IMG/VR virus record: IMGVR_UViG_3300035182_002586
Span: 363,585-427,584 of that record
DNA from: a virus
Strand: one strand, 5' to 3'
Length of the DNA: 64,000 nt
The translations under genes were made by a program, and so were the position numbers. Below are positions 4,672 through 63,004 of this stretch, one piece after another. The notes beneath the pieces are model-generated. The model was given only the letters and a program-made list of their open reading frames with translations. It made no database searches and was not told the DNA's origin. The stretch's first letter is position 1. The number at the start of each line of letters is the position of its first letter.

Positions 4672-4703
4672 GATGGATCGGTGCGGGGGCCGATCGGTAG
4701 TCC
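4672..4703 (+). promoter_or_regulatory. Bipartite GATGGATCG-15-GGTAGTCC element
   Basis: GATGGATCG at 4672-4680, a 15-bp spacer, then GGTAGTCC at 4696-4703. This matches the element repeated before minus-strand genes at 53.9 and 58-63 kb. It lies 35 bp before the ATG at 4739, which has its own AAGGAG, so in this copy the element is clearly upstream of the ribosome binding site. That supports a promoter rather than a translational signal. Confidence 0.6.
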
Positions 4704-4738: not shown

Positions 4739-5032
4739 ATGGACCTTATGACCATGCCCAAAGGGGCACCTTCTCTGCACGCACTGAACAACGCAACCTC
4801 CGGAAATCTATTGGATTTCGCGGGGTATTGCCGACAGCACGGCTTCACGGCGTCGGTCGTCGTTCAGACGGAAGGTCTGCATGACGACGAGGCGGTCCTG
4901 CACCTGCACGCAGCCAACGCCTTCGGGCGGACCACGCACTTCGAGTCCCATCAGCTCACGGGGCGAGCGGCGAAGGCCGCCCGGGACCTCAAGAACCTGT
5001 CTCCGGATCTGACCTTCCGCTTCCGCCTGTAG
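4739..5032 (+). CDS. Small protein of unknown function
   Basis: 97 residues on the plus strand, against the flow of the neighbouring genes. The start ATG has AAGGAG 10 nt upstream and a bipartite promoter-like element further up. The sequence looks like a compact alpha/beta protein (TASVVVQTEGLHDDEAVLHL). Its 3' end overlaps the convergent zinc-finger gene by 44 bp. No family is recognised. Confidence 0.7.
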   Translation: MDLMTMPKGAPSLHALNNATSGNLLDFAGYCRQHGFTASVVVQTEGLHDDEAVLHLHAANAFGRTTHFESHQLTGRAAKAARDLKNLSPDLTFRFRL

Positions 5033-33977: not shown

Positions 33978-36900
33978 CTACACGAGGAGGCAGACACCGC
34001 CCGAGCAGGCGACCTCGCCCTTGAGGTCCGTGTCGTCGCTGTCCTCGACCATGAGCGTGTAGTCGAGGGGCTCGTAGCTCTCCAGGATCGCGTTCCAGCG
34101 AGCCTCGTCCACCGGGGTCACGATGGCCTCGTTGGGCGCGAAGGCGTAGTCCTTGTCCCCCGTGCTCGCCAGGAGGCTGACGCCCGTGAAGAACTCCCGG
34201 TTCTCCCACAGGTAGTCCGCCACCTTGTCCCACTCGTCCGGGCGGACCGTCACGGTGTTCGAGACGTTGTGGTTGAGGCCCGGCGAGTACGTGGAGTCGG
34301 CCGTACCGGCGAGGACCCAGTTCTGCTGCGTGGACTTCACCATGTCGAGGAACGGGATGGCCGTGATGTCGTCCTTGATCGTCGCCTCGGGGGGCGCCTC
34401 GACCGGGAACTCGATCACGTACTTGCCGTCGGGCTTCCTGACGCACATGTGCGGGTTCTTGGCCTTGAACGCCTGGAAGACCGGCTCCAGCTCGTCGGCG
34501 GTGACGCGGCGGATGTATCGTCTGGCGTGGTGGGCGTGGTGGCCCGAGCCGACGCACCCCAGCTCCAAGCTGGTCGTGCCGGAGGGCTTCACGCAGGTCG
34601 TACGGGCAGCGGGCCGGATCCCGATGCGAGCCGACAGCTCGATGTTCCACTGCTTGATGAGCCCCGCGACCTCACGCTGGTATTCGGGGTTGCACGCGAT
34701 GTGCGGTGCGTCGAGCATCCCGGTCATGCCGATACCGAGAAGCGACTCGCGCTCGGCGATCACCTCGGAGACGGCGCCGAGGTAGGGCATCTTCGTGTAC
34801 CCTGCCTGGAGGGTCCCGATGATCGTGGCAGCCCTGGCGGCCTCCTTGAAGTCCTCCAGGCTGGTCAACCGGGCCGCGTTGATCTCGCAGAGGTTGCAGA
34901 AGGCCCACCCCGTGTGAGACGAACCAAGGGCGACGGTGACACCCTTGGCAGCGAACTTCGCCTGCATCTCGGCGTCCACGACCACCTTCGGGTTCATCCC
35001 GATCTCACAGCACGGGTTGGTGCCGTAGTCGTAGTCGCTGGTGAAGTAGAAGCCGGGCTCGCCCCACTGGCGAGTCATGTTGAAGATGCGCTTGAACTGC
35101 TTCTTCTTCACCTCGTCGCGCTTGAGCACGACGGAATTGTTCGAGTTCGCGAGCCACGGCTCCTTGGCGAACCAGTTGCCCGTCTTGATGTGCATCATCT
35201 CCGAGTCGTCGAGGGAGAAGAGGCAAATCATCGCGGACCGACGGATGCCGCCGGAGAGGACCGCATCAGCCGCGTGGCACATGATCCGGTGGCACTCGAC
35301 CGAGCGGAGCTTGCGACCCTGCGCGCCGCTCAGGACGCCGCGGATCTGTTCCAGGGAGTCCTTGAGCTTGAGGTGGCCGGGGGCCCGACCACCGCTGGTG
35401 CGCAGAGGCGTCCCTGCGTCCCGGATCAGGTGATAGCTGATCTCCAGGTTCACGCCGTCGAGGAAGCTCTGGACGAGGGCCTTGAGGCCGTCCGCCCACC
35501 CCTCGATGGTGTCCTGCACGACGTGGTGCCGAACCTTCTTCGGATCGACGTACGCGATGGCGGGGAGCTTCTCGATGTGATCGAACTGGACCGAGTAGCC
35601 CACGCCGCAACCGGAGAGGAGAAGGTAGAGGGCCTCTGAGAAGACCTCCATGCGGTCGACGAGGCTGAACGAGCAGTTACCCGTCACGATGCCGTTCGGC
35701 AGGACGAACGAGTGATCGTCCTCGACCTCAAGACACCAGACCGTCTCGTATCCCGCTTCCTTGATGGACTGCACGCTGTAGGGAGACGATGGGGCATCCC
35801 CAAAGCCGAGCACGAGGCCGAACCGAGAGGTTTCCGGGCGGATACCGAAGTTCGTCTCCTGGCCAGTCAGGTCGTCCTCACGGGTGATGTACGCCCCAAC
35901 AGCCGGGAAAACCTTACGGATGAAGTCGATGGCTTCGCCACCCGTTGCCTGGATGCCGTTGAAGGGGCTCGGCCAATCCCCGTTCTCGTTCTTGTGCCCG
36001 TCCGCATCGAGGAAGCCCCGCACGAACGCCATGACGTTCTCGAAGCCGTCCTGCTCGATGCTAGGCAGCGTCTTGAGATACTTCCCCGTGTAGGCCATCG
36101 CGTCGCCGCCGAAGGTTGCAGGAGAACTCGTCGCAAAGCCCAACTCCTTGAACCGCTCCAAGAAGCGTTCCTTGTCCTTCCCGCAGAGACGGACCATCGA
36201 GTAGGTCGGCTCCCCCTCGCGACCCTTCACGAGGGTACCGTCGCCGTAGACATACCCGAGAGCCCAGTAGTACCGGGCCTCGGGATTGGCCTCGGTGTAG
36301 TCCCAGGCCCCGACGAGACGCGGAGCCTTTGCGAGCTTGTGCTTGACGGAGAGGTCACGGGTACGCTCCCCGTTCTCCAGTAGCCACTGGTGGTCTCGGG
36401 TCGACCGCACCGTGAACGAAGACCGCCCCCGGCCGATGGTGACCTCGAAAAGCTGCTGCGTCCCGTAGCTCTTCACGACGGCGGACTTCCACGCCCCCGT
36501 GTGCGTTAGGACGGTGATCTTATCACCGTCCTTGAAGTCGGAGAACTTCTTGACCCCTTGCGTCGTGATGAACTCCGTCTCGACCCCCATGCAGTTGTAG
36601 ATACGGTTGTTGTTCGCGAGGATGGCCTGCCCACCGAACTGCATCGAGCGCATCGACGGCAGCACACGCTTCTCCCGCACCCGGTCGAAGGCCCACCGGA
36701 TTTCCTTCTGCATCTCGGGGTATACCTCCAGGTGCATCCCCTCGATGCGGGCGACCGTCTCGGAGTAGACCTCGCGGCGCTTCTGCCTCGGCAGGTAGCG
36801 TGCGTACTTCCCCGCGTGGATGTAGTCGGAGATCGCCTTGGGGTCCGGGGTCTTCGCAGTTCGACCCTGACGGGCTTCCGCCCGCTGATGCCGGTAAAGA

Positions 36901-37208
36901 ATGAACGCCTTGGCGACGGCGAACTGACCCTGCCGCATGAGCGCCGTCTCGACGGCATCCTGCACGTTCTCGACGCAGACGACTTCTTCCGTCAGTGCAT
37001 CGATGACCGTGTTGAGGGTCCGATTCAGTGCCCTCTCGTCGACGCTTCCCTTGGCTTCCTCCCATGCGCGGCTGATGGCGCGACGCAGCTTGGACGTGTC
37101 GAACGGTTGGTGAACCTTACCGTCGCGCTTTCGGATGCTCTGCACCACCGCCCGCATCGAAGGGGCGTGGTCGTTCGAGATGGCCTGGATAACCGCAGCA
37201 GCTTGCAT
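33978..37208 (-). CDS. nrdJ: Class II (B12-dependent) ribonucleotide reductase with intein
   Basis: 1076 residues including a 306-residue intein; the spliced enzyme is 770. Residues ~17-112 are an ATP-cone (SIRKRDGKVHQPFDTSKL). The catalytic part has the RTPR-like features NxCxF at the intein joint, PCCEIGMNP, and CVKPSGTTSLELGCVGSG. The C-terminus ends CSGGVCLLV, the C-x4-C redox pair known from adenosylcobalamin-dependent ribonucleoside triphosphate reductases. It makes dNTPs for phage replication without oxygen or a second subunit. It starts 16 bp downstream of the delta-subunit gene, so the order on the strand is delta-prime, delta, reductase. Confidence 0.9.
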   Translation of the reverse strand: MQAAAVIQAISNDHAPSMRAVVQSIRKRDGKVHQPFDTSKLRRAISRAWEEAKGSVDERALNRTLNTVIDALTEEVVCVENVQDAVETALMRQGQFAVAKAFILYRHQRAEARQGRTAKTPDPKAISDYIHAGKYARYLPRQKRREVYSETVARIEGMHLEVYPEMQKEIRWAFDRVREKRVLPSMRSMQFGGQAILANNNRIYNCMGVETEFITTQGVKKFSDFKDGDKITVLTHTGAWKSAVVKSYGTQQLFEVTIGRGRSSFTVRSTRDHQWLLENGERTRDLSVKHKLAKAPRLVGAWDYTEANPEARYYWALGYVYGDGTLVKGREGEPTYSMVRLCGKDKERFLERFKELGFATSSPATFGGDAMAYTGKYLKTLPSIEQDGFENVMAFVRGFLDADGHKNENGDWPSPFNGIQATGGEAIDFIRKVFPAVGAYITREDDLTGQETNFGIRPETSRFGLVLGFGDAPSSPYSVQSIKEAGYETVWCLEVEDDHSFVLPNGIVTGNCSFSLVDRMEVFSEALYLLLSGCGVGYSVQFDHIEKLPAIAYVDPKKVRHHVVQDTIEGWADGLKALVQSFLDGVNLEISYHLIRDAGTPLRTSGGRAPGHLKLKDSLEQIRGVLSGAQGRKLRSVECHRIMCHAADAVLSGGIRRSAMICLFSLDDSEMMHIKTGNWFAKEPWLANSNNSVVLKRDEVKKKQFKRIFNMTRQWGEPGFYFTSDYDYGTNPCCEIGMNPKVVVDAEMQAKFAAKGVTVALGSSHTGWAFCNLCEINAARLTSLEDFKEAARAATIIGTLQAGYTKMPYLGAVSEVIAERESLLGIGMTGMLDAPHIACNPEYQREVAGLIKQWNIELSARIGIRPAARTTCVKPSGTTSLELGCVGSGHHAHHARRYIRRVTADELEPVFQAFKAKNPHMCVRKPDGKYVIEFPVEAPPEATIKDDITAIPFLDMVKSTQQNWVLAGTADSTYSPGLNHNVSNTVTVRPDEWDKVADYLWENREFFTGVSLLASTGDKDYAFAPNEAIVTPVDEARWNAILESYEPLDYTLMVEDSDDTDLKGEVACSGGVCLLV
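35676..36593 (-). other. Intein with LAGLIDADG homing endonuclease in NrdJ
   Basis: 306 residues, from Cys206 (codon at 36591-36593) to Asn511; Cys is the +1 residue. Block A is CMGVETEFITTQG, block B is near VRSTRDHQW, and the end is LEVEDDHSFVLPNGIVTGN. The penultimate residue is Gly rather than His. The two LAGLIDADG helices are WALGYVYGDGT (~110-120) and FVRGFLDADGH (~190-200), both with acidic residues, so the nuclease may be active. Insertion is at the conserved N/CSF site of the reductase. Confidence 0.87.

Positions 37209-42261: not shown

Positions 42262-42262
<1 letters not shown>
42065..42262 (-). CDS. Small acidic protein
   Basis: 65 residues, ATG 42262 overlapping the GroEL stop (ATGA). 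The pattern VLADIDDWIDAWHVAP ... LHAYLGLTWEEYAAF ... RPSSLDEIL belongs to a widespread small bacterial/phage family of unknown function. It is translationally coupled to GroEL. Confidence 0.66.
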
Positions 42263-44343
<2,081 letters not shown>

Positions 44344-45408: not shown

Positions 45409-45828
45409 CTAGGCGAGCTTGCCCCCGTGAAGCAGGGGGCGTCCAGTGTTGAACGCGTGCTTCACGGCGACCGCCTTGGCCACGTCCACACCGTGCGCCT
45501 GTGCCTTGTCGAGGGCGCGGATGATCTCGTCCGCGATCTCCTCCTCCGCGTTGGTGAGCGGGGGGAGGCCCATCGCCTGCATCTTCTCGGCCTTGTCGCA
45601 CAGCTTGTCGAGGGTCCCCTTACGGAACGCCTCCCAGAACTCTGACGCCTCGCCGTGCTGGTTGGACGTGTACGTAGCGGCCCGAACGAGCTGCCCGAGC
45701 GGGCCGTTCCACTGCTCGTCGGTCATGTCCTTCCGCATCTGGTCTCGGAAGCCCTTGTTCACGGCGTTCGCGGCCACAGCGTCACGGATGGTGTTGAGAA
45801 ACGCAAGCTGGTCGGGGGTGATGTCCAT
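45409..45828 (-). CDS. MazG-like nucleotide pyrophosphohydrolase
   Basis: 139 residues. The all-alpha MazG pattern is present: HGEASEFWEAFRKG (Glu60, Glu63) then EEEIADEIIRALDKA (~95-109) and a final KHAFNTGRPLLHGGK. These acidic pairs bind magnesium and nucleoside triphosphate. Phage MazG proteins lower non-canonical or signalling nucleotides. The ATG has a GGTGTA element 11 nt upstream. Confidence 0.75.
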   Translation of the reverse strand: MDITPDQLAFLNTIRDAVAANAVNKGFRDQMRKDMTDEQWNGPLGQLVRAATYTSNQHGEASEFWEAFRKGTLDKLCDKAEKMQAMGLPPLTNAEEEIADEIIRALDKAQAHGVDVAKAVAVKHAFNTGRPLLHGGKLA

Positions 45829-45839
45829 GCGCGCGCCGG

Positions 45840-45845
45840 TACACC
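45840..45845 (-). promoter_or_regulatory. GGTGTA motif before MazG-like gene
   Basis: GGTGTA on the minus strand, 11 nt before ATG 45828, with no clear Shine-Dalgarno in between. Confidence 0.45.
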
Positions 45846-45849
45846 GAGT

Positions 45850-46802: not shown

Positions 46803-47141
46803 TTAGAAGGCCAACCCTAGGGACAAGACTACCCGACGACCCCGTACAGTAGAGACAGAGTGGGGTGAAATGTCCGGGCGAAACAGCGTGAACCGACGCC
46901 CAACACGCAGAATCGCGAGGCCCTCGAAGTCCCCGCCCTCTTTCGGGCCCCAAAGGACGAGGTTCGCACGATAGTGTCTGCGGCCCGGAACCTCATCCAC
47001 ATGCGTTGGGATGTAGGTATCCTCCGGGTAGTCGATCACCCACGAATCCCAACCGAGGCTCCCAAGCGTTCCTTGTGCGAGGAGACGCTTCCGGTACCCG
47101 GTGCCCTGTCGCCCTGCCTCCCACGACCCCCAGAAGCGCAT
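46803..47141 (-). CDS. 2OG-Fe(II) oxygenase-like protein
   Basis: 112 residues from ATG 47141. The iron site pattern H-x-D...H is visible: PTHVDEV (His47, Asp49) and SPHSVSTVRGRR (His94, with Arg100/102 as the 2-oxoglutarate anchor), within a beta-helix-like core (NLVLWGPKEGGDFEG). The small size suggests a minimal domain. Such enzymes hydroxylate proteins or DNA bases. It is the divergent neighbour of the HD hydrolase. Confidence 0.68.
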   Translation of the reverse strand: MRFWGSWEAGRQGTGYRKRLLAQGTLGSLGWDSWVIDYPEDTYIPTHVDEVPGRRHYRANLVLWGPKEGGDFEGLAILRVGRRFTLFRPDISPHSVSTVRGRRVVLSLGLAF

Positions 47142-47153
47142 CGTACCGAGTTT

Positions 47154-47159
47154 TACACC
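47154..47159 (-). promoter_or_regulatory. GGTGTA motif, minus half of divergent pair
   Basis: GGTGTA 12 nt before ATG 47141. It forms an inverted pair with the plus-strand copy at 47170 (TACACC, 10 bp, GGTGTA). Confidence 0.55.
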
Positions 47160-47169
47160 GGCGGGTTCT

Positions 47170-55658: not shown

Positions 55659-56338
55659 GCGGTGCCGGAGGCAGGTGCCTCCTCCTCGACGAAGAGCCCG
55701 CGAACCAGGTCCCTCATCACGGACAGCAGCGCGCCCGACATCAGGTTCGCGAGGTAGATGCGGGCCCACCCCCGGTCTTTGGTCGAGTCCGGTGGCACTT
55801 CATCCAGCAACCGCACGGCCGTAGCCCCGGGAGGAACCTCCTCCGTGCTGACACAAACGTGCACCGTCACGTCATGTCCCTCCAGAGTGGGCTCCTTTCG
55901 CAGCTCCTCCGCACACAGGTGTCCGATCGAGTGGGCCTCTGCCACGCTGATGCGGCACGACTCGACCACAAGCGCCAGTGTGAGCGACGGCCGGGAAGGG
56001 CAGGAGAGTGCGTCGCTGAGCGCCGACTTCGAGAACGGCTTGAGGAGGAAGTTGTCGAGGTCGGGGTACGATCGATCGGTCCCGGACATCAGCACGATCC
56101 GCAGGTGAGGGTAGGACTCGCGAGCGAGGCGGAGAAAGTCGGCACCCGTCTTCTCCGACCCCAAGTCGTGGTCCGACCCCAAGTCGTGGTCCGAGATCAC
56201 GACATCCAGATCCGCCCCGAGGGCGCTCACGGCTTCGTCGTACGTTGCGGCTTGCACTGTCTCGTGGCCCAGCGTGCGCAACGTACGGCTGAGCGACGAA
56301 CGGTTCCCTGCGCAGTCATCAAGGACGAGCACTTTCAT
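55655..56338 (-). CDS. Response-regulator receiver protein with duplicated phospho-site loop
   Basis: 227 residues. Residues 1-115 are a CheY-like receiver: VLVLDD (Asp7, Asp8), ISDHDLG with phospho-Asp50, VLMSGTD, LLKPF with Lys100. An exact 18-bp tandem duplication makes SDHDLGSDHDLGSEKTG at the phospho-site. The C-terminal ~110 residues (VTVHVCVSTEEVPPGATAV, a helix) are not a known output domain. Phage receivers may hijack host two-component signalling. Confidence 0.8.
   Translation of the reverse strand: MKVLVLDDCAGNRSSLSRTLRTLGHETVQAATYDEAVSALGADLDVVISDHDLGSDHDLGSEKTGADFLRLARESYPHLRIVLMSGTDRSYPDLDNFLLKPFSKSALSDALSCPSRPSLTLALVVESCRISVAEAHSIGHLCAEELRKEPTLEGHDVTVHVCVSTEEVPPGATAVRLLDEVPPDSTKDRGWARIYLANLMSGALLSVMRDLVRGLFVEEEAPASGTA
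56155..56190. repeat. Exact 18-bp tandem duplication in receiver gene
   Basis: CCGACCCCAAGTCGTGGT occurs twice back to back (56155-56172 and 56173-56190). It adds six residues, SDHDLG, in frame, so the gene stays open. It lies on the beta3/alpha3 phospho-acceptor loop. Confidence 0.85.
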
Positions 56339-56350
56339 CCCTGCTAGCCC

Positions 56351-56356
56351 TACACC
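56351..56356 (-). promoter_or_regulatory. GGTGTA motif, minus half of divergent pair
   Basis: GGTGTA 12 nt before ATG 56338, inverted relative to the plus copy at 56370 (13 bp between). Confidence 0.55.
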
Positions 56357-56369
56357 GAATGTCCTGCGC

Positions 56370-56375
56370 GGTGTA
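56370..56375 (+). promoter_or_regulatory. GGTGTA motif, plus half of divergent pair
   Basis: GGTGTA 11 nt before ATG 56387. Confidence 0.55.
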
Positions 56376-56386
56376 CGCGTAGTTGC

Positions 56387-56848
56387 ATGAAGGCGAAAAC
56401 TCTCGTGCACAAGTGCCACCAGAACCTCCTGGAGCTGCACTCTCGCCTGTGCGTCGATGTGATCGACGACCACTCGAAGGCCGTCGCGCTGGCTGCGGCC
56501 AAGAAGCTCGCCGAAGACGCCGCGCAGCTCGTCGAGGCGATCACGAGGGGCGTTCCCGAACCCCTGCCCAAGAGCCCCCCGTGTGTGGCGAACGTCGGCG
56601 AGGGCTTCGGCGGGTGGGACGAGGCCCTCGAAGACGGGACCCCGCGCTCCCCGCTCATCTTCTCGTGCCAGATCGAAGCACGGGCCAAAGCTCGAAAGCT
56701 CCTCCGGGAAGTGCTCGATATCCCTCTGGAAGTCGCCGCTCGTTCCGTACCCACGGATGCGGGGCCCGAGGTGTCGGACCGTGACGTGGAGAGGCTGGAC
56801 GCCGCCCTCAAGGCGCACCGGATCGACGCAAAGGTTTCGCGGCGCTAG
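56387..56848 (+). CDS. Helical protein of unknown function
   Basis: 153 residues on the plus strand, after a GGTGTA element. A helical N-terminal half (LVHKCHQNLLELHSRLCVDV, KKLAEDAAQLVEAI), a Pro/Gly loop, then more helices. The end overlaps the convergent small gene by 4 bp. Not recognised. Confidence 0.65.
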   Translation: MKAKTLVHKCHQNLLELHSRLCVDVIDDHSKAVALAAAKKLAEDAAQLVEAITRGVPEPLPKSPPCVANVGEGFGGWDEALEDGTPRSPLIFSCQIEARAKARKLLREVLDIPLEVAARSVPTDAGPEVSDRDVERLDAALKAHRIDAKVSRR

Positions 56849-58128: not shown

Positions 58129-58488
58129 TCACACGCTGACGCAGATCTCCCCCTCCTGACGCGCGCCTTCGACCGCCTCTGGGAAGGCGGCGACGATCGC
58201 CGCGTAACACTCCTCACGCACCTGCTTGCGCCACGCGTCGATCGCGTCGAACCGCGCCTGGTTCCACTCGCCGTTGACGCGGACGGGGATGGCGTCGATC
58301 GCCCCCGGGAGACGGCGCGACGTGACGCTGCCGTGCACCTGGTTGCCGATCGTGAAGAGCGTCGAATGCGGGCCGAAGTACGACGACGGCTCGTAGACCG
58401 AGAACACGATGCGGCCCGTCGGGGCGATCGAGTTCTTGCACACCACGAACCCGCCGACCGCCTTCTTCTCGTTGATGTATTGCGCCAT
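58129..58488 (-). CDS. Protein of unknown function
   Basis: 119 residues from ATG 58488, just after a bipartite element. A beta-rich N-terminal half (GGFVVCKNS, GRIVFSVYEPSSYF, HSTLFTIGNQVHGSV), then a helical end with REECYAAIVAAFPEA. Early gene by its promoter class (inference). Not recognised. Confidence 0.65.
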   Translation of the reverse strand: MAQYINEKKAVGGFVVCKNSIAPTGRIVFSVYEPSSYFGPHSTLFTIGNQVHGSVTSRRLPGAIDAIPVRVNGEWNQARFDAIDAWRKQVREECYAAIVAAFPEAVEGARQEGEICVSV

Positions 58489-58492
58489 GTCC

Positions 58493-58524
58493 CCTCTACA
58501 ATGGGGGACCCCCGACGATCCATC
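58493..58524 (-). promoter_or_regulatory. Bipartite element GATGGATCG-15-TGTAGAGG
   Basis: First block is the complement of 58516-58524, second block the complement of 58493-58500. ATG 58488 follows after 4 nt. Confidence 0.65.
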
Positions 58525-58531
58525 CGAGAAG

Positions 58532-58822
58532 CTACATGCCGGGGAAAGAAAGTTGGCGGGGGTCGCCACCCTCCTCAACCGCTGCGGCTACCGCGAGCAG
58601 AGCGCTCCGAGGCCCTACGGTCCCCACGAACGCCCGTGCGACCACGAGCGCGGAAGTCCAGGAGACCTGTGCGCCACCGCTCTTCGTGAGCGTCCACGCG
58701 GCCTCTCCGGACTTCTGCGCCTCCGTGCAGGGGCCGATCGTCACCCCTCGTGAGGTCAGCGTGCGACCCGCGATGAGCAGGCCCTCTACCCTTCGTACGA
58801 CGTAGGAAGTGTCGTTCGACAT
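58532..58822 (-). CDS. Small protein of unknown function
   Basis: 96 residues from ATG 58822 (GTAGGAG upstream). Beta start (TSYVVRRVEGLLIAG), then AAWTLTKSG and a hydrophobic helix (SALVVARAFVGTVG, SALLAVAAAVEEGG). Not recognised. Confidence 0.6.
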   Translation of the reverse strand: MSNDTSYVVRRVEGLLIAGRTLTSRGVTIGPCTEAQKSGEAAWTLTKSGGAQVSWTSALVVARAFVGTVGPRSALLAVAAAVEEGGDPRQLSFPGM

Positions 58823-58852
58823 CTCCTACGTCGTATGACAAGAGGAAGTTCG

Positions 58853-60172
58853 CTAGCCGTCGACAGACACTTCCTTCGCCGAGCAGTAGTGCAACTGCCC
58901 GCAATCGGGGCAGGTCACCTCGACCTCGCCGCCCATCTTGCGGGGCTTGGCCGAGAGCTGCTTCTTGCACTTGTGGCAGGCGAACGAGCGGTCGACCGTC
59001 TCCTCCTCGGGCGGGATGTAGACCTCGGGGCGGTCCCGGACGGCCCACCCGATCGACGGGCGGATCACGAGCGTCTCCGGGTCCTGCGAGTAGCCGAGGA
59101 GCCCCGCGACGAACTCCATCGGGAACTCCTGCTCGTAGTAGGACCACTTGAAGTCGACCTTCGAGAGGCTCGGGGGCACGGAGTCTACGGTCGGTCCGTG
59201 GTGGGAGTCGAAACCCGTGTCACGGTGACGCAGCTCGGAGGCGGGGCGCTCCCCCCACTTGAGGACGGTGGAGTTCTGGCACGTGTACTTGCCCGGGGAC
59301 TTCCAGTCCTCGACGTACGGGAAGAAGAACTGGATCCAGCCCGTCACGAAGGGCCCACCGGAGCCGCCCCCCTGGTGGTAGATGGACTGCCAGAACTTCT
59401 GGTCCTCCTGGCTCAGCGGGCCGTCGAATGCCCGGACGAAGTACTGGAGGATGCCGGAGAGGGGTTTCGTCCACCACCCGAGGTCGTACTCGGCGAGGAC
59501 TTCCGCCCGCTGCTGGACGCTCTTCCAATCGGCCTGCGTACCGAGGAGCGTGACCTCGGGGATCCCGCACATCGTCGAGACGCGGTACTCGAAGTAGTTG
59601 CGCATCGCGTCCATCAGGACGACCTCGGAAGCGGCGCGCTCGACGGGGCCCGTGGTCGAGAAGGCGGAGACCACGAGGTCCCGCTGCTTGCCGATGTGCT
59701 CGCCGATCTGATCGGAGAACTCGCCGAAGACCCCCTGCCAGTCGTTGGCGGCGGAGCCCTTCACGAAACTGTCCCGGACGACGAGCAGCTCTTTCTTGCC
59801 CTCGTGCTGGACGAACCGGCTGCGCAAGGCTTCGGCGTTCGCGTCCACGTGCCGGGCGAACCCCTGCGCGATCGTGAGCCAGATGTCGTCCGGGCTCAGG
59901 GCGAGGGGGTAGTGACGGTTGAACGCCGCGTCCACGGCCCCGAGGAGCCCGTTCGGCGTCCAGCCGTCGCAGATGTTCGGCGTGTTGACGCCGGACGCCT
60001 CGATGGTCGGCGGGGGCTTGGAGTGGCCCTCTTTGACATACCGGCTTGGCTTCACGCCGAGCTGGACGGAGAACGCCTTGTTGAAGTCCTGCGAGGTCGC
60101 GAGAGGGCCTTCCGGCTTGGTGAGCGGATTGCCCCTCGCGTCCTTCTCGTTGACCTTGAACTTGATCGCCAT
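58853..60172 (-). CDS. DUF4419-like protein with C-terminal zinc ribbon
   Basis: 439 residues. The core follows DUF4419: LALSPDDIWLTIAQGFARHV, AFSTTGPVERAASEVVLMDA, CGIPEVTLLGTQADWKSV, FWQSIYHQGGGSGGPFVTGW, IQFFFPYV. This family is known chiefly from fungi and some bacteria and is of unknown function. A short C-terminal zinc ribbon, CHKCKKQ ... CPDCGQLHYC, is added. Preceded by GGTGTA. Confidence 0.78.
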   Translation of the reverse strand: MAIKFKVNEKDARGNPLTKPEGPLATSQDFNKAFSVQLGVKPSRYVKEGHSKPPPTIEASGVNTPNICDGWTPNGLLGAVDAAFNRHYPLALSPDDIWLTIAQGFARHVDANAEALRSRFVQHEGKKELLVVRDSFVKGSAANDWQGVFGEFSDQIGEHIGKQRDLVVSAFSTTGPVERAASEVVLMDAMRNYFEYRVSTMCGIPEVTLLGTQADWKSVQQRAEVLAEYDLGWWTKPLSGILQYFVRAFDGPLSQEDQKFWQSIYHQGGGSGGPFVTGWIQFFFPYVEDWKSPGKYTCQNSTVLKWGERPASELRHRDTGFDSHHGPTVDSVPPSLSKVDFKWSYYEQEFPMEFVAGLLGYSQDPETLVIRPSIGWAVRDRPEVYIPPEEETVDRSFACHKCKKQLSAKPRKMGGEVEVTCPDCGQLHYCSAKEVSVDG

Positions 60173-60183
60173 GAGGGGCGATC

Positions 60184-60189
60184 TACACC
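60184..60189 (-). promoter_or_regulatory. GGTGTA motif before DUF4419 gene
   Basis: GGTGTA 11 nt before ATG 60172, within CTAGACGGTGTAG, a 13-bp string identical to that at 5831-5842. Confidence 0.5.
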
Positions 60190-60251
60190 GTCTAGTCTTG
60201 CACTTGGGAGCGGCAAGCAGCTTTTCCAGTTTGGGTGCAGGGGCACACCGC

Positions 60252-60596
60252 CTAGAAGCGCTTGCCCTTGAGCAGCGAGTCGATCGTGCGGACGAGGGAG
60301 TCGTTGTACACGCCTTCGACCTTGCCCTCCTCGACCCACTTGATGCCCGTCGCCATGCGACGGCCGAGGATCTTCTCGAAGGTCTGCGCGTTGCGGCCCA
60401 CGGTGACCTCGTAGAGGTCGCTGCCGGCGTCGAGCTTCACGATGACCTTGCGGCCACGCGCGAGGCAGAACTGGACGCCCGACTCGTCGAAGAGGACTTC
60501 CGTGCGGCCGGACATCCCGGTGATGCCCCACGAAGCGAGGGCGTAGCGGTCGGTGGCGCGGATCTGAGCGATGATGGTGGAGGCAACGGGGGTCAT
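60252..60596 (-). CDS. Small protein of unknown function
   Basis: 114 residues, right after a bipartite element. Helical start (VASTIIAQIRATDRYALASW), a beta core (GRTEVLFDESGVQFCLARG, KVIVKLDAGSDLYEVTVG) and a basic end. Size and context suggest an early host-interaction protein (inference). Not recognised. Confidence 0.64.
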   Translation of the reverse strand: MTPVASTIIAQIRATDRYALASWGITGMSGRTEVLFDESGVQFCLARGRKVIVKLDAGSDLYEVTVGRNAQTFEKILGRRMATGIKWVEEGKVEGVYNDSLVRTIDSLLKGKRF

Positions 60597-60600
60597 GTCC

Positions 60601-60632
60601 CCTCTACAACGCGAGGGGTGGACCGATCCATC
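60601..60632 (-). promoter_or_regulatory. Bipartite element GATGGATCG-15-TGTAGAGG
   Basis: First block is the complement of 60624-60632, second block the complement of 60601-60608. ATG 60596 follows after 4 nt. Confidence 0.65.
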
Positions 60633-60639
60633 GAGATTG

Positions 60640-60909
60640 TTACAGCTTCCCGGTCAGATGGTACCGGTAGCGGCCGATCGTCTTGTCGAGCAGACCGTCG
60701 AGCGTGTCTTCCCCCAAGGTCCGCAGCGTGACCATCTTCCCGGGCATGATCCGGAAGCGCTTGTCACGCGCGGGGACTGCGACCGAAGTATCGAACGAGT
60801 ACTGCCCTTGGATCAGAACGCGGTTGACCGTGACCATCGTGGCCTCGGGGATGGCTACCTGGATGGCCGCGCACAGCGTGTCGATGTCGTCGAGGGTCGG
60901 GGTCGGCAT
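60640..60909 (-). CDS. Small protein of unknown function
   Basis: 89 residues. DDIDTLCAAIQVAIPEATMV then beta strands (VNRVLIQGQYSFDTSVAV, FRIMPGKMVTLRTLG) and a helix. Expressed from its own bipartite element. Not recognised. Confidence 0.63.
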   Translation of the reverse strand: MPTPTLDDIDTLCAAIQVAIPEATMVTVNRVLIQGQYSFDTSVAVPARDKRFRIMPGKMVTLRTLGEDTLDGLLDKTIGRYRYHLTGKL

Positions 60910-60913
60910 GTCT

Positions 60914-60945
60914 CCTCTACAGCGGGGCGCGGCCCCTGATCCATC
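60914..60945 (-). promoter_or_regulatory. Bipartite element GATGGATCA-15-TGTAGAGG
   Basis: First block is the complement of 60937-60945 (last base A), second block the complement of 60914-60921. ATG 60909 follows after 4 nt. Confidence 0.62.
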
Positions 60946-60947
60946 CC

Positions 60948-61247
60948 CTACACCGAGACCATCGCGAACGCGTCGGCCAGGGCGGCCAAGAAGCTCGTGC
61001 GCTGCATCCAGATCGTGGTCGACGTGTCGCCGTTGTCACGGCTCGCGCAGTAGTAGCGGCCGAAGGGGCCAACCTGAACGTCGAGAACCGAGTCCTTGCC
61101 GTCCTTGACGAGGATGACTGACGCGTCCTCGGACTCGTCCTTGGCGGGCTCGAAGCGCAGTTCGTACCCATGCTCACGCGCGAGCTTGGTGGACTTGGCC
61201 GAGATCGGGTTGTGGTTCACGTCGCGGGGGGTACGGGAGGTTGCCAT
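60948..61247 (-). CDS. Small protein of unknown function
   Basis: 99 residues from ATG 61247. A basic start (SRTPRDVNHNPISAKSTKL), a beta sheet (YELRFEPAK, ASVILVKDGKDSVLDVQVG, GRYYCASRDNGD) and an Ala-rich helical end. Own bipartite element. Not recognised. Confidence 0.63.
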   Translation of the reverse strand: MATSRTPRDVNHNPISAKSTKLAREHGYELRFEPAKDESEDASVILVKDGKDSVLDVQVGPFGRYYCASRDNGDTSTTIWMQRTSFLAALADAFAMVSV

Positions 61248-61251
61248 GCTC

Positions 61252-61283
61252 CCTTTACAATGCGGGACCCGGATCGATCCATC
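61252..61283 (-). promoter_or_regulatory. Bipartite element GATGGATCG-15-TGTAAAGG
   Basis: First block is the complement of 61275-61283, second block the complement of 61252-61259 (one change, TGTAAAGG). ATG 61247 follows after 4 nt. Confidence 0.62.
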
Positions 61284-61288
61284 GGGGG

Positions 61289-61585
61289 TCAGGGCGTGAT
61301 CTTCGACGCCCACTCGGCCAGGGCCGTCGCGAGGTTGCCACCATTCGCTTCCGCAGCCTTCACGACCTCCTCGACGCGACCGTAGTGGTGGCTCCAGCCG
61401 TTCCCGAAGACGATGTTCGCCTTGTGTTCCCAGCAGACGGCCAGCATCTCGGTGCAGATGTTCGTCTGGCGCGAGACCTCGGACTTCGCACTGCTCTTCT
61501 TCAGGAGCAGGCCGGAGAGGGTCGCCAGGTTGTACTCGGTGGCGTTCGCGTACTGGTTGAAAATGTCCTTGGGGCCACGGTTCAT
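61289..61585 (-). CDS. Small protein of unknown function
   Basis: 98 residues. Helical, with CTEMLAVCWEHKANIVFGNG and a GWSHHYGRVEEVV segment. It lies in an operon with the next two upstream genes under one bipartite element. Not recognised. Confidence 0.62.
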   Translation of the reverse strand: MNRGPKDIFNQYANATEYNLATLSGLLLKKSSAKSEVSRQTNICTEMLAVCWEHKANIVFGNGWSHHYGRVEEVVKAAEANGGNLATALAEWASKITP

Positions 61586-61595
61586 GACATCCTCC

Positions 61596-61871
61596 TCACA
61601 CCAGATCGAAGATCACGCCCTTATCCTGGTCGGCAAAGTGGAACTTCGCCGTCTCACTGTCGACCTTGAAGGTCACGTAGCGCGTCCCGATGTCGGTGAC
61701 GAGGCAACCACCGCCGCTGCCGCTGCCGCAGAAGGCGAGTTCGCCCTTGGAGTCGGTCACCGTGCTCTGGATGCGCAGCGCGGGCTTATGCCCGAAGAGC
61801 ACCTGAAAGGCCGCCACGACCTGGTTCAGCTCGCGGATGGAAGAGACCTCACGACGAATGTTGCTCGACAT
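61596..61871 (-). CDS. Small protein of unknown function
   Basis: 91 residues. Helical start (SSIRELNQVVAAFQVLFG), then a beta sheet with a Gly/Ser-rich loop (FCGSGSGGGCLV) and KFHFADQDKGVIFDL. It lies 10 bp from its downstream neighbour. Not recognised. Confidence 0.62.
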   Translation of the reverse strand: MSSNIRREVSSIRELNQVVAAFQVLFGHKPALRIQSTVTDSKGELAFCGSGSGGGCLVTDIGTRYVTFKVDSETAKFHFADQDKGVIFDLV

Positions 61872-61872
61872 G

Positions 61873-62058
61873 TCAGACCTCCTCAGAGACGCGGGCGACG
61901 GCCTTGTTGAGACGGCGGGCCGCGCGAGCGGTGAAGCGCTTGGCCCAACGGGTGGACTTGGGGGAGCGGGCGACGGGCGACTCGAAGAAGTCGTGGCCCT
62001 TGAAGCTGTGGCAGGCGACGAGCGCCTTTTCGGCCTTGCGGAGGGATGCGGTGTTCAT
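61873..62058 (-). CDS. Small basic protein
   Basis: 61 residues. Basic, Ala/Arg-rich (RWAKRFTARAARRLNKAV), perhaps nucleic-acid binding. First gene after a bipartite element. Not recognised. Confidence 0.6.
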   Translation of the reverse strand: MNTASLRKAEKALVACHSFKGHDFFESPVARSPKSTRWAKRFTARAARRLNKAVARVSEEV

Positions 62059-62062
62059 ATCC

Positions 62063-62094
62063 CCACTACCGCGCGACCCCCGGATCGATCCATC
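62063..62094 (-). promoter_or_regulatory. Bipartite element GATGGATCG-15-GGTAGTGG
   Basis: First block is the complement of 62086-62094, second block the complement of 62063-62070. ATG 62058 follows after 4 nt. Confidence 0.6.
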
Positions 62095-62097
62095 AGG

Positions 62098-62379
62098 CTA
62101 CTCGTCGAATTCCTCCGCAGCGAGGGAAGCCTCGAAATCCGCGTCGTCCCCGGCCCGGCGGGCGAAGTCCTCCGCGAACGCGTCCTGGATGAACGCCTTG
62201 GGCGGGGTCTTGGCCGCGAACGCCTCTGCGGCGACCATCTTGAGGTCGTAGGGGTCGTCGTCCGCGAAGCAGTCCGCGAGCCCAAGCTCGCTCTCCGCGT
62301 AGGCGGCGGCTCTTTCTCTCCACTGCTCGAAGGTCAGGACCGAAGCGGCCCTGACCCTCTTCTTGCGCCTCGCACCCAT
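62098..62379 (-). CDS. Small acidic helical protein
   Basis: 93 residues, ATG 62379 overlapping the upstream stop (ATGA). A basic first 10 residues, then helical and acidic (LTFEQWRERAAAYAESELG ... FARRAGDDADFEASLAAEEF). Not recognised. Confidence 0.62.
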   Translation of the reverse strand: MGARRKKRVRAASVLTFEQWRERAAAYAESELGLADCFADDDPYDLKMVAAEAFAAKTPPKAFIQDAFAEDFARRAGDDADFEASLAAEEFDE

Positions 62380-62969
62380 CACGCCCCCACGGGCGCGCCG
62401 CAGTTGAGCGAGCGGTTGCGGTAGAGGCCCTCGGAGCGGCGCTTGGCTGCGATCGCGCCACGGTCGCCGATGAGGGCTTCCCACTGGCGGGCGGAGAGGG
62501 GGGAGCGGTACTTGCGCTCCTCAGCCGGGGTCTCTAGCCAGGCGACGATCTGGTCGCGGAGCGACTTGCGGAACTCCGAGCGGAAGTTCTTGGTCTTGAG
62601 GAGCGTGGCGGCCGCCATGCACTCGGCCATGTCCAGGCCGCGGAGACCGCGCTGCCACGCCTCGCACCAGGTCGGGTCCACGCCCGCGCCCCACAGGTAC
62701 TTCCACGCGGTCACGTTGTCGGCCCACGACTGGACCGAGAGCCACGACGGGAGCGTGACCTCGTGGACCTCGTACTTGTTCGCGGTCACGAGCATGTCGT
62801 TGTCGTACGACATGCAGTAGCTCTCCTTGATCGAGAGCAGGTGGTCGTCGGCGCCGTCCACGAACGCGCGGATCGGGTCCGCGGCGGTGGTGACGTTCTC
62901 GCCCGTCTTCTGGAAGAGGACGCGGATGGTGGTGAGGGTCGAGGCGGCGGAGGCGGTCGTGATGTCCAT
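62379..62969 (-). CDS. Protein of unknown function
   Basis: 196 residues from ATG 62969, after a bipartite element. The middle has Trp-rich helical text (WLSVQSWADNVTAWKYLWG, WCEAWQRGLRGLDMAECM), and the C-terminus is basic. Not recognised. Confidence 0.65.
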   Translation of the reverse strand: MDITTASAASTLTTIRVLFQKTGENVTTAADPIRAFVDGADDHLLSIKESYCMSYDNDMLVTANKYEVHEVTLPSWLSVQSWADNVTAWKYLWGAGVDPTWCEAWQRGLRGLDMAECMAAATLLKTKNFRSEFRKSLRDQIVAWLETPAEERKYRSPLSARQWEALIGDRGAIAAKRRSEGLYRNRSLNCGAPVGA

Positions 62970-62973
62970 GTCC

Positions 62974-63004
62974 CTCCTACAACGCGGGCCAGACCCGATC
63001 CATC
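62974..63004 (-). promoter_or_regulatory. Bipartite element GATGGATCG-14-TGTAGGAG
   Basis: First block is the complement of 62996-63004; second block TGTAGGAG is the complement of 62974-62981, 14 bp away. ATG 62969 follows after 4 nt. The only copy with a spacing other than 15. Confidence 0.58.

Follow-up and report, generated by a model that had tools for sequence, protein, structure and literature searches.

The 64,000-nucleotide window analysed here spans bases 363,585-427,584 of the genome record of a phage, G000 (record G000:C1, 528,957 bp), and carries eight copies of a bipartite element, termed class A, most of them directly ahead of the start codon of a small gene. Class A is probably an extracytoplasmic function (ECF)-type promoter placed at the start codon and read by the host polymerase together with a phage ECF-like sigma factor. 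According to this explanation GATGGATC would act as the -35 and [TG]GTAG as the -10 element, with 16-17 bp between them, and transcription would begin at, or a few bases from, the A of the ATG, giving a leaderless or near-leaderless mRNA; where the ATG is further away, a Shine-Dalgarno sequence would follow the promoter. The promoter would be recognised by host RNA polymerase equipped with an ECF-like sigma factor that the phage encodes and whose region 2 is split by an insertion. That class A is a phage-specific promoter had been proposed in an earlier note on this DNA and is the best-supported reading. It is very likely correct, because the two-block layout and the distance to the ATG are retained in related phages while the letters change, because orthologous genes in one relative (G015) use the classical ECF form GGAAAA..CGTC, and because the phage has a gene for a divergent ECF-like sigma factor. 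The earlier note had also likened the two blocks to sigma-70 hexamers, and of this the sigma-like spacing of 16-17 bp stands; the class itself appears to be of the ECF type, and a second class, GGTGTA, exists too.

Geometry and start-codon register of class A

The copies listed in the earlier note were all re-found at their coordinates in the window, where eight matches at three or fewer mismatches compare with 0.39 expected from dinucleotide shuffles. They are:

58488..58524 (-), class A element with GATGGATC at 58524-58517 and GTAG at 58499; ATG 58488, gene 58488-58129, 119 aa
60596..60632 (-), class A element; ATG 60596, gene 60596-60252, 114 aa
60909..60945 (-), class A element; ATG 60909, gene 60909-60640, 89 aa
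61247..61283 (-), class A element; ATG 61247, gene 61247-60948, 99 aa
62058..62094 (-), class A element; ATG 62058, gene 62058-61873, 61 aa
62969..63004 (-), class A element with a 16-bp spacer; ATG 62969, gene 62969-62379, 196 aa
53883..53922 (-), class A element with the base before GTA at -15; ATG 53883, gene 53883-53071, 270 aa
4672..4739 (+), class A element with GTAG at 4697, an AAGGAG Shine-Dalgarno sequence and a displaced start; ATG 4739, 97-aa open reading frame (ORF) to 5032

Between the blocks as first drawn there are 15 bp in seven of the eight copies and 14 bp in the copy at 62973, in agreement with the earlier description. The second block is present as well, although the letters first given to it, (T/G)GTAGAGG, were too narrow and are better written [TG]GTAG[AT][GA]GG. 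The closeness to the ATG was confirmed, the base before GTA lying at -12 in all six copies between 58493 and 63004, as was the displacement of the copy at 4672, which has its own ribosome site, AAGGAG, followed by the ATG at 4739.

Less than 300 kb of the 529 kb of G000 was read as stretches, and the genome-wide counts given here come from a pattern search of the record. This whole-genome scan, suggested in the earlier note, gave 74 matches to GATGGATC-N12..20-GTA at 69 distinct sites, against a single match to the reversed pattern. The spacer is 17 bp in 48 of these sites and 16 bp in 18, with one site each at 12, 15 and 18 bp, so that 66 of the 69 have 16 or 17 bp, where 16-19 bp separate the blocks of ECF promoters; the strict form is GATGGATC-N16/17-GTAG. 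Viewed from the first block, 43 of the 47 GATGGATC words in an uninterrupted 162 kb that surrounds the finding are followed by GTA at 14-18 bp. An ATG-started ORF of at least 35 codons lies behind 58 of the 69 sites, and about 3-5 sites (e.g., 15195, 86773 and 117212) lack a gene start and are probably chance matches, which leaves about 65 genuine copies in the 529-kb phage.

The base before GTA is found at -12 relative to the A of the ATG in 45 sites and at -13 in 7, i.e., in 52 of 69. With this A as +1, KGTAGW occupies -12 to -7 and ATGGAT -35 to -30, which is a sigma -35/-10 geometry provided that transcription begins at the start codon. ECF transcripts begin about 10 nt beyond the -10 core, a point that in this register would coincide with the ATG. 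A C is also conserved 6 and 4 bases ahead of GTA (61 and 54 of 66, respectively). The nearly leaderless mRNA of the earlier note is the best-supported reading, and judged by the register a leaderless or near-leaderless transcript is likely. Whether the pattern is equally frequent within coding regions was addressed through the ATG register, since counts inside and outside ORFs are uninformative with an ORF caller that over-extends. Maximal-order Markov word counts missed every motif, the known one included, and positional counts upstream of the ATG worked.

An ATG 21-46 bases downstream was flagged for seven copies, two of which (86773 and 135328) look like chance. The five others (93249, 216278, 368256, 455321 and 491769) have a plausible gene and a Shine-Dalgarno-like sequence before the ATG, which the script scored in four of them; for 93249 the scored ATG was 4 bases short of the true one, which follows GAGGG. 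Displaced copies with a Shine-Dalgarno sequence fit a promoter followed by a leader, not a purely translational element. An RNA hairpin or riboregulator was considered and rejected, as the spacer-shuffle z-score was +0.22, the consensus fold was empty and no Rfam match was obtained. Column counts over all sites gave no 17-bp inverted repeat in the element or in the 10 bp upstream.

Probable re-coded promoters and a candidate split sigma factor in related phages

Relatives were traced through a 215-aa protein of G000 (G000:C1 71,524-72,171) with two sigma-4-like helix-turn-helix domains (Sigma70_r4, E 2.4e-11). It gave 33 related loci at 58-65% identity, many in records of 230-435 kb, and the relatives were examined as stretches of their genomes. 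The GATGGATC form is at background level in all 17 of the records of such relatives that were searched. Close relatives with the same letters were also sought more widely: 59 viral contigs match a relaxed pattern, apparently by chance and in no case with an in-register ATG; another two viral matches and a single genome match look like chance too.

What the relatives keep is the spacing and the distance to the start codon, while the recognition letters change. In G010 the element reads GGTTGATC-N17-GTAG (or GTTGATC-N17-GTA), in the -12 register in most copies; in G009 it is GGTTGATTC..GTAGT, in G012 GTTGAATC..GTGTTC and, more weakly, in G014 TTGAACC..GTA. In G015, GGAAAA..CGTC (GGAAAA-N16-CGTC) emerged from the regions ahead of class A orthologues, most of which are 41-57% identical. 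This form occurs before an ATG 20 times in 200 kb of G015, against once in the reversed control; exactly 17 bp follow GGAAA in 19 of the 20 copies, and the most frequent position of the base before GT is -15, not -12. An alignment anchored at GT places the -35 blocks of G000, G010, G009 and G015 in shared columns. Individual genes of the window can be followed in the same way: the G015 orthologue of gene 62058-61873 has GGAAAAAG..CGATCGTT ahead of its start, a weak G015 orthologue of gene 58488-58129 (34% identity) has GGAAAAAG upstream, and the G009 orthologue of gene 53883-53071 has GTTGATTC..GTAGT ahead of its start; gene 62969-62379 has a G015 orthologue at 52% identity. The ECF letters GGAA(C) and (C)GT(C/T) are matched by the upstream regions of the G015 orthologues; the corresponding letters in G000 are GGATC and GTAG.

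A search with sigma region 2 gave half-length matches in G012, G004 and G007, to ECF-like proteins in which segments resembling sigma 2.1-2.2 and 2.3-2.4 are split by an insertion. Relatives of this protein were missed by a single-protein search and found by an alignment-based one. The G000 homologue has 393 aa (G000:C1 93,299-94,477) and is 35% identical to the G007 protein (E 1.8e-24). With the insertion left out it matches Sigma70_r2 at positions 1-70 of 71 (E 2e-4, below cut-off), and the G012 protein reaches 28.6 bits, above cut-off. The NCBIfam matches obtained in this way are sigma-factor families, mostly of the ECF type and mostly below curated cut-offs (for G000, TIGR02985 at 1.5e-6 and TIGR02937 at 1.2e-5). 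As for sigma region 4, the TIGR02937 match of the G000 protein reaches 137 of 165 positions, and Pfam region 4 is unmatched. Such a domain insertion into region 2 would be an unusual feature for a sigma factor.

Seven relatives, including G009, G010, G012, G014 and G015, each gave one ECF-like homologue, so that every relative showing class A has one; none was found in the eighth relative searched, G016 (a 184-kb record). The ECF-like protein is 25-31% identical to that of G000, against 61-67% for the sigma-4-like protein. A second start-associated motif, GGTGTA (class B, with its T at about -14 from the ATG), is present in G000 and relatives and keeps its letters. The drifting promoter class would thus go with the drifting protein and the constant class with the constant protein, a correlation drawn from sequence comparison. 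It is fairly likely that the phage ECF-like sigma factor reads class A. Upstream of the sigma gene, G000 has a class A element (93249) and G015 a G015-type element, in both cases with a displaced ATG and a Shine-Dalgarno sequence, and this suggests that the gene may be autoregulated through a class A-type element. The G000 record yielded no gene for the beta' subunit of a multisubunit RNA polymerase, and the host core polymerase is therefore probably used. A second G000 gene at 492 kb (L256:1159-1821 (+), G000:C1 ~491,832-492,494) is related to the ECF-like gene in the insertion only and also lies behind a class A element.

Phage sigma factors with promoters of their own are already known; unusual here are the re-coding from one relative to another and a region 2 that is split. 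There is about an even chance that these phages form a huge-phage clade with a private near-leaderless programme, in which the ECF-sigma/promoter pair of each lineage would have been re-coded into at least five alphabets (GATGGATC/GTAG, GGTTGATC/GTAG, GGTTGATTC/GTAGT, GTTGAATC/GTGTTC and GGAAAA/CGTC), matched to a fast-evolving sigma factor that has an inserted domain in region 2, with the constant GGTGTA class serving other genes beside it.

Weighing of other explanations

Several observations count against the ECF-type promoter and its proposed reader. The G000 sigma homologue stays below curated cut-offs, and no decoy control accompanied the searches made with the insertion removed. The AlphaFold model of the protein is weak (mean predicted local distance difference test score, pLDDT, of 66), and its top Foldseek matches are sigma factors but not significant. 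In G009 and G014 no class A element is visible at the sigma gene, and among 18 matches to relatives of class A genes two scored as class A and three as class B, with a script that did not contain the G015 form. Finally, anti-Shine-Dalgarno pairing of -6 kcal/mol or stronger is found at 39% of class A starts, just as at 39% of operon-internal starts, because the bases after GTAG are G-rich in G000; judged from G000 alone, a translational contribution of these bases is possible. This last point, the position just before the ATG and the similar location of the SAS repeats of mycobacteriophages (PMC3203893) are what speaks for a start-associated translation element, in which the second block would be a Shine-Dalgarno variant and the first an RNA- or protein-binding site in the leader, as in the start-associated sequences (SAS) and extended start-associated sequences (ESAS). 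Yet the displaced copies carry a separate Shine-Dalgarno sequence, there is no conserved fold, the relatives keep the spacing and not the purine run (TGTAGGACCCCCATG, TTGTAGTACCTTCATG), and G015 uses the ECF form, which makes this explanation rather improbable. The G-run after GTAG is kept less strongly in G009, G010 and G015, and AGGAG-like words (AGGAG, GGAGG, AAGGA or GAGGT) occur in 16% of class A leaders; the AGGAG core of SAS/ESAS that pairs with 16S rRNA is not a feature of class A.

If class A is a promoter, it could be read by a sigma factor of the host, either ECF or housekeeping, with the phage ECF-like protein acting otherwise. The ECF-like geometry and the likely use of the host core polymerase would be accounted for, but the -35/-10 letters vary among related phages and none corresponds to a housekeeping consensus, every relative with class A has an ECF-like gene that diverges fast, and a scan of genome contigs gave a single match, apparently by chance; this is an unlikely solution. 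Equally unlikely is that the conserved 215-aa protein supplies the -35 recognition. Its Sigma70_r4 match and a sigma-4 fold near region 4 of SigF and SigR (Foldseek E-values >0.1) are in its favour, but no sigma-2 domain was found in it, and its identity of 61-67% among relatives goes with the constant class B rather than with class A letters that change. An operator or silencer repeat resembling mycobacteriophage stoperators, or a mobile repeat, would explain why copies are dispersed in both orientations, but hardly why they keep a fixed ATG register and are oriented with the gene; nothing is conserved beyond the two blocks and the C-rich stretch, and such a repeat is very improbable.

Class B, neighbouring genes and known systems

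GGTGTA is the most start-associated hexamer by positional word counts in G000 (61 of 148 near a start) and in most relatives; it is weak in G008 and was not found in the sampled parts of LR745208 (sigma-4 protein at 39.5%) or KX853510. Shine-Dalgarno pairing of -6 kcal/mol or stronger is seen at 3-12% of class B starts versus 38-52% of operon-internal starts. Twelve back-to-back TACACC..GGTGTA pairs were counted in 223 kb, most between divergent ATGs and 2-22 bp apart (L083:14643, L082:11017, window 56350 and nine others). A CGGTGTA box starting at 60955 lies just upstream of the class A element at 60909..60945, and other class B boxes in the window are:

60172..60190 (-), CGGTGTA ahead of the DUF4419 gene 60172-58853
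56338..56387 (both strands), back-to-back TACACCG..CGGTGTA between divergent genes starting at 56338 (-) and 56387 (+)
47141..47160 (-), CGGTGTA, ATG 47141; an opposite-strand box starts at 47169
45828..45846 (-), CGGTGTA, ATG 45828, 139 aa

Elsewhere a class B box precedes the gene of a 796-aa protein with a Cas12f1-like TNB domain (PF07282, E 1.6e-10; L085:14849-17236 (-), G000:C1 ~501,849-504,236) and a LAGLIDADG endonuclease gene (L233:4943-5887 (-)), near which a protein resembling a major capsid protein, as judged by eye, is encoded. The window also encodes the large subunit of a ribonucleotide reductase that probably contains an intein (33978-37208 (-); Intein_splicing, below cut-off) and a GroEL-type chaperonin (42262-43911 (-)). 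The ten-mers TAGGAACGCA/TGCGTTCCTA and AACGCACGCA occur nine times each in the G000 stretches (window and L082-L086).

If the preferred explanation is correct, these phages provide, ready made in nature, a set of orthologous sigma factors and promoters whose specificity has diverged, in which the drift of sigma-promoter codes becomes directly testable. Large parts of huge-phage genomes would then be expressed from leaderless mRNAs, and the motifs could serve to assign start codons and transcription units in uncultured phages.

Class A resembles the ECF-sigma promoters of Corynebacterium glutamicum SigH/SigE and Streptomyces coelicolor SigE in having bipartite -35/-10 blocks 16-19 bp apart, and GGAAAA..CGTC of G015 is close to the classical forms GGAAC-N16-CGTT (PMC10012870) and GGAAC..CGTC (PMC6767563). 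It differs in that the G000 letters, GATGGATC and GTAG, are no listed consensus, and in that it is found in phage, lies mostly at the start codon and varies in its letters among relatives. Conserved short motifs before phage genes, credited to a phage-encoded sigma factor that works together with the host polymerase, are likewise known from phiEco32 and 7-11 (PMC4331800), but these occur in few copies and comprise no more than a -10-like core, whereas G000 has about 65 two-part copies and the separate GGTGTA class. The leaderless genes of Deinococcus-Thermus and Mycobacterium tuberculosis, with a -10 element next to the ORF, have the transcript start placed at the start codon (PMC12340547; PMC3898074), as is proposed for class A, but use TANNNT without a conserved -35, whereas the element of G000 is phage-specific with a strong -35. 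The SAS/ESAS of cluster K mycobacteriophages are likewise repeated asymmetric elements a few bases before the ATG of non-structural genes (PMC3203893). The SAS contains AGGAG and has been proposed to act in translation, and the ESAS has 17-bp inverted repeats, whereas class A has no inverted repeat and a fixed spacing of 16-17 bp.

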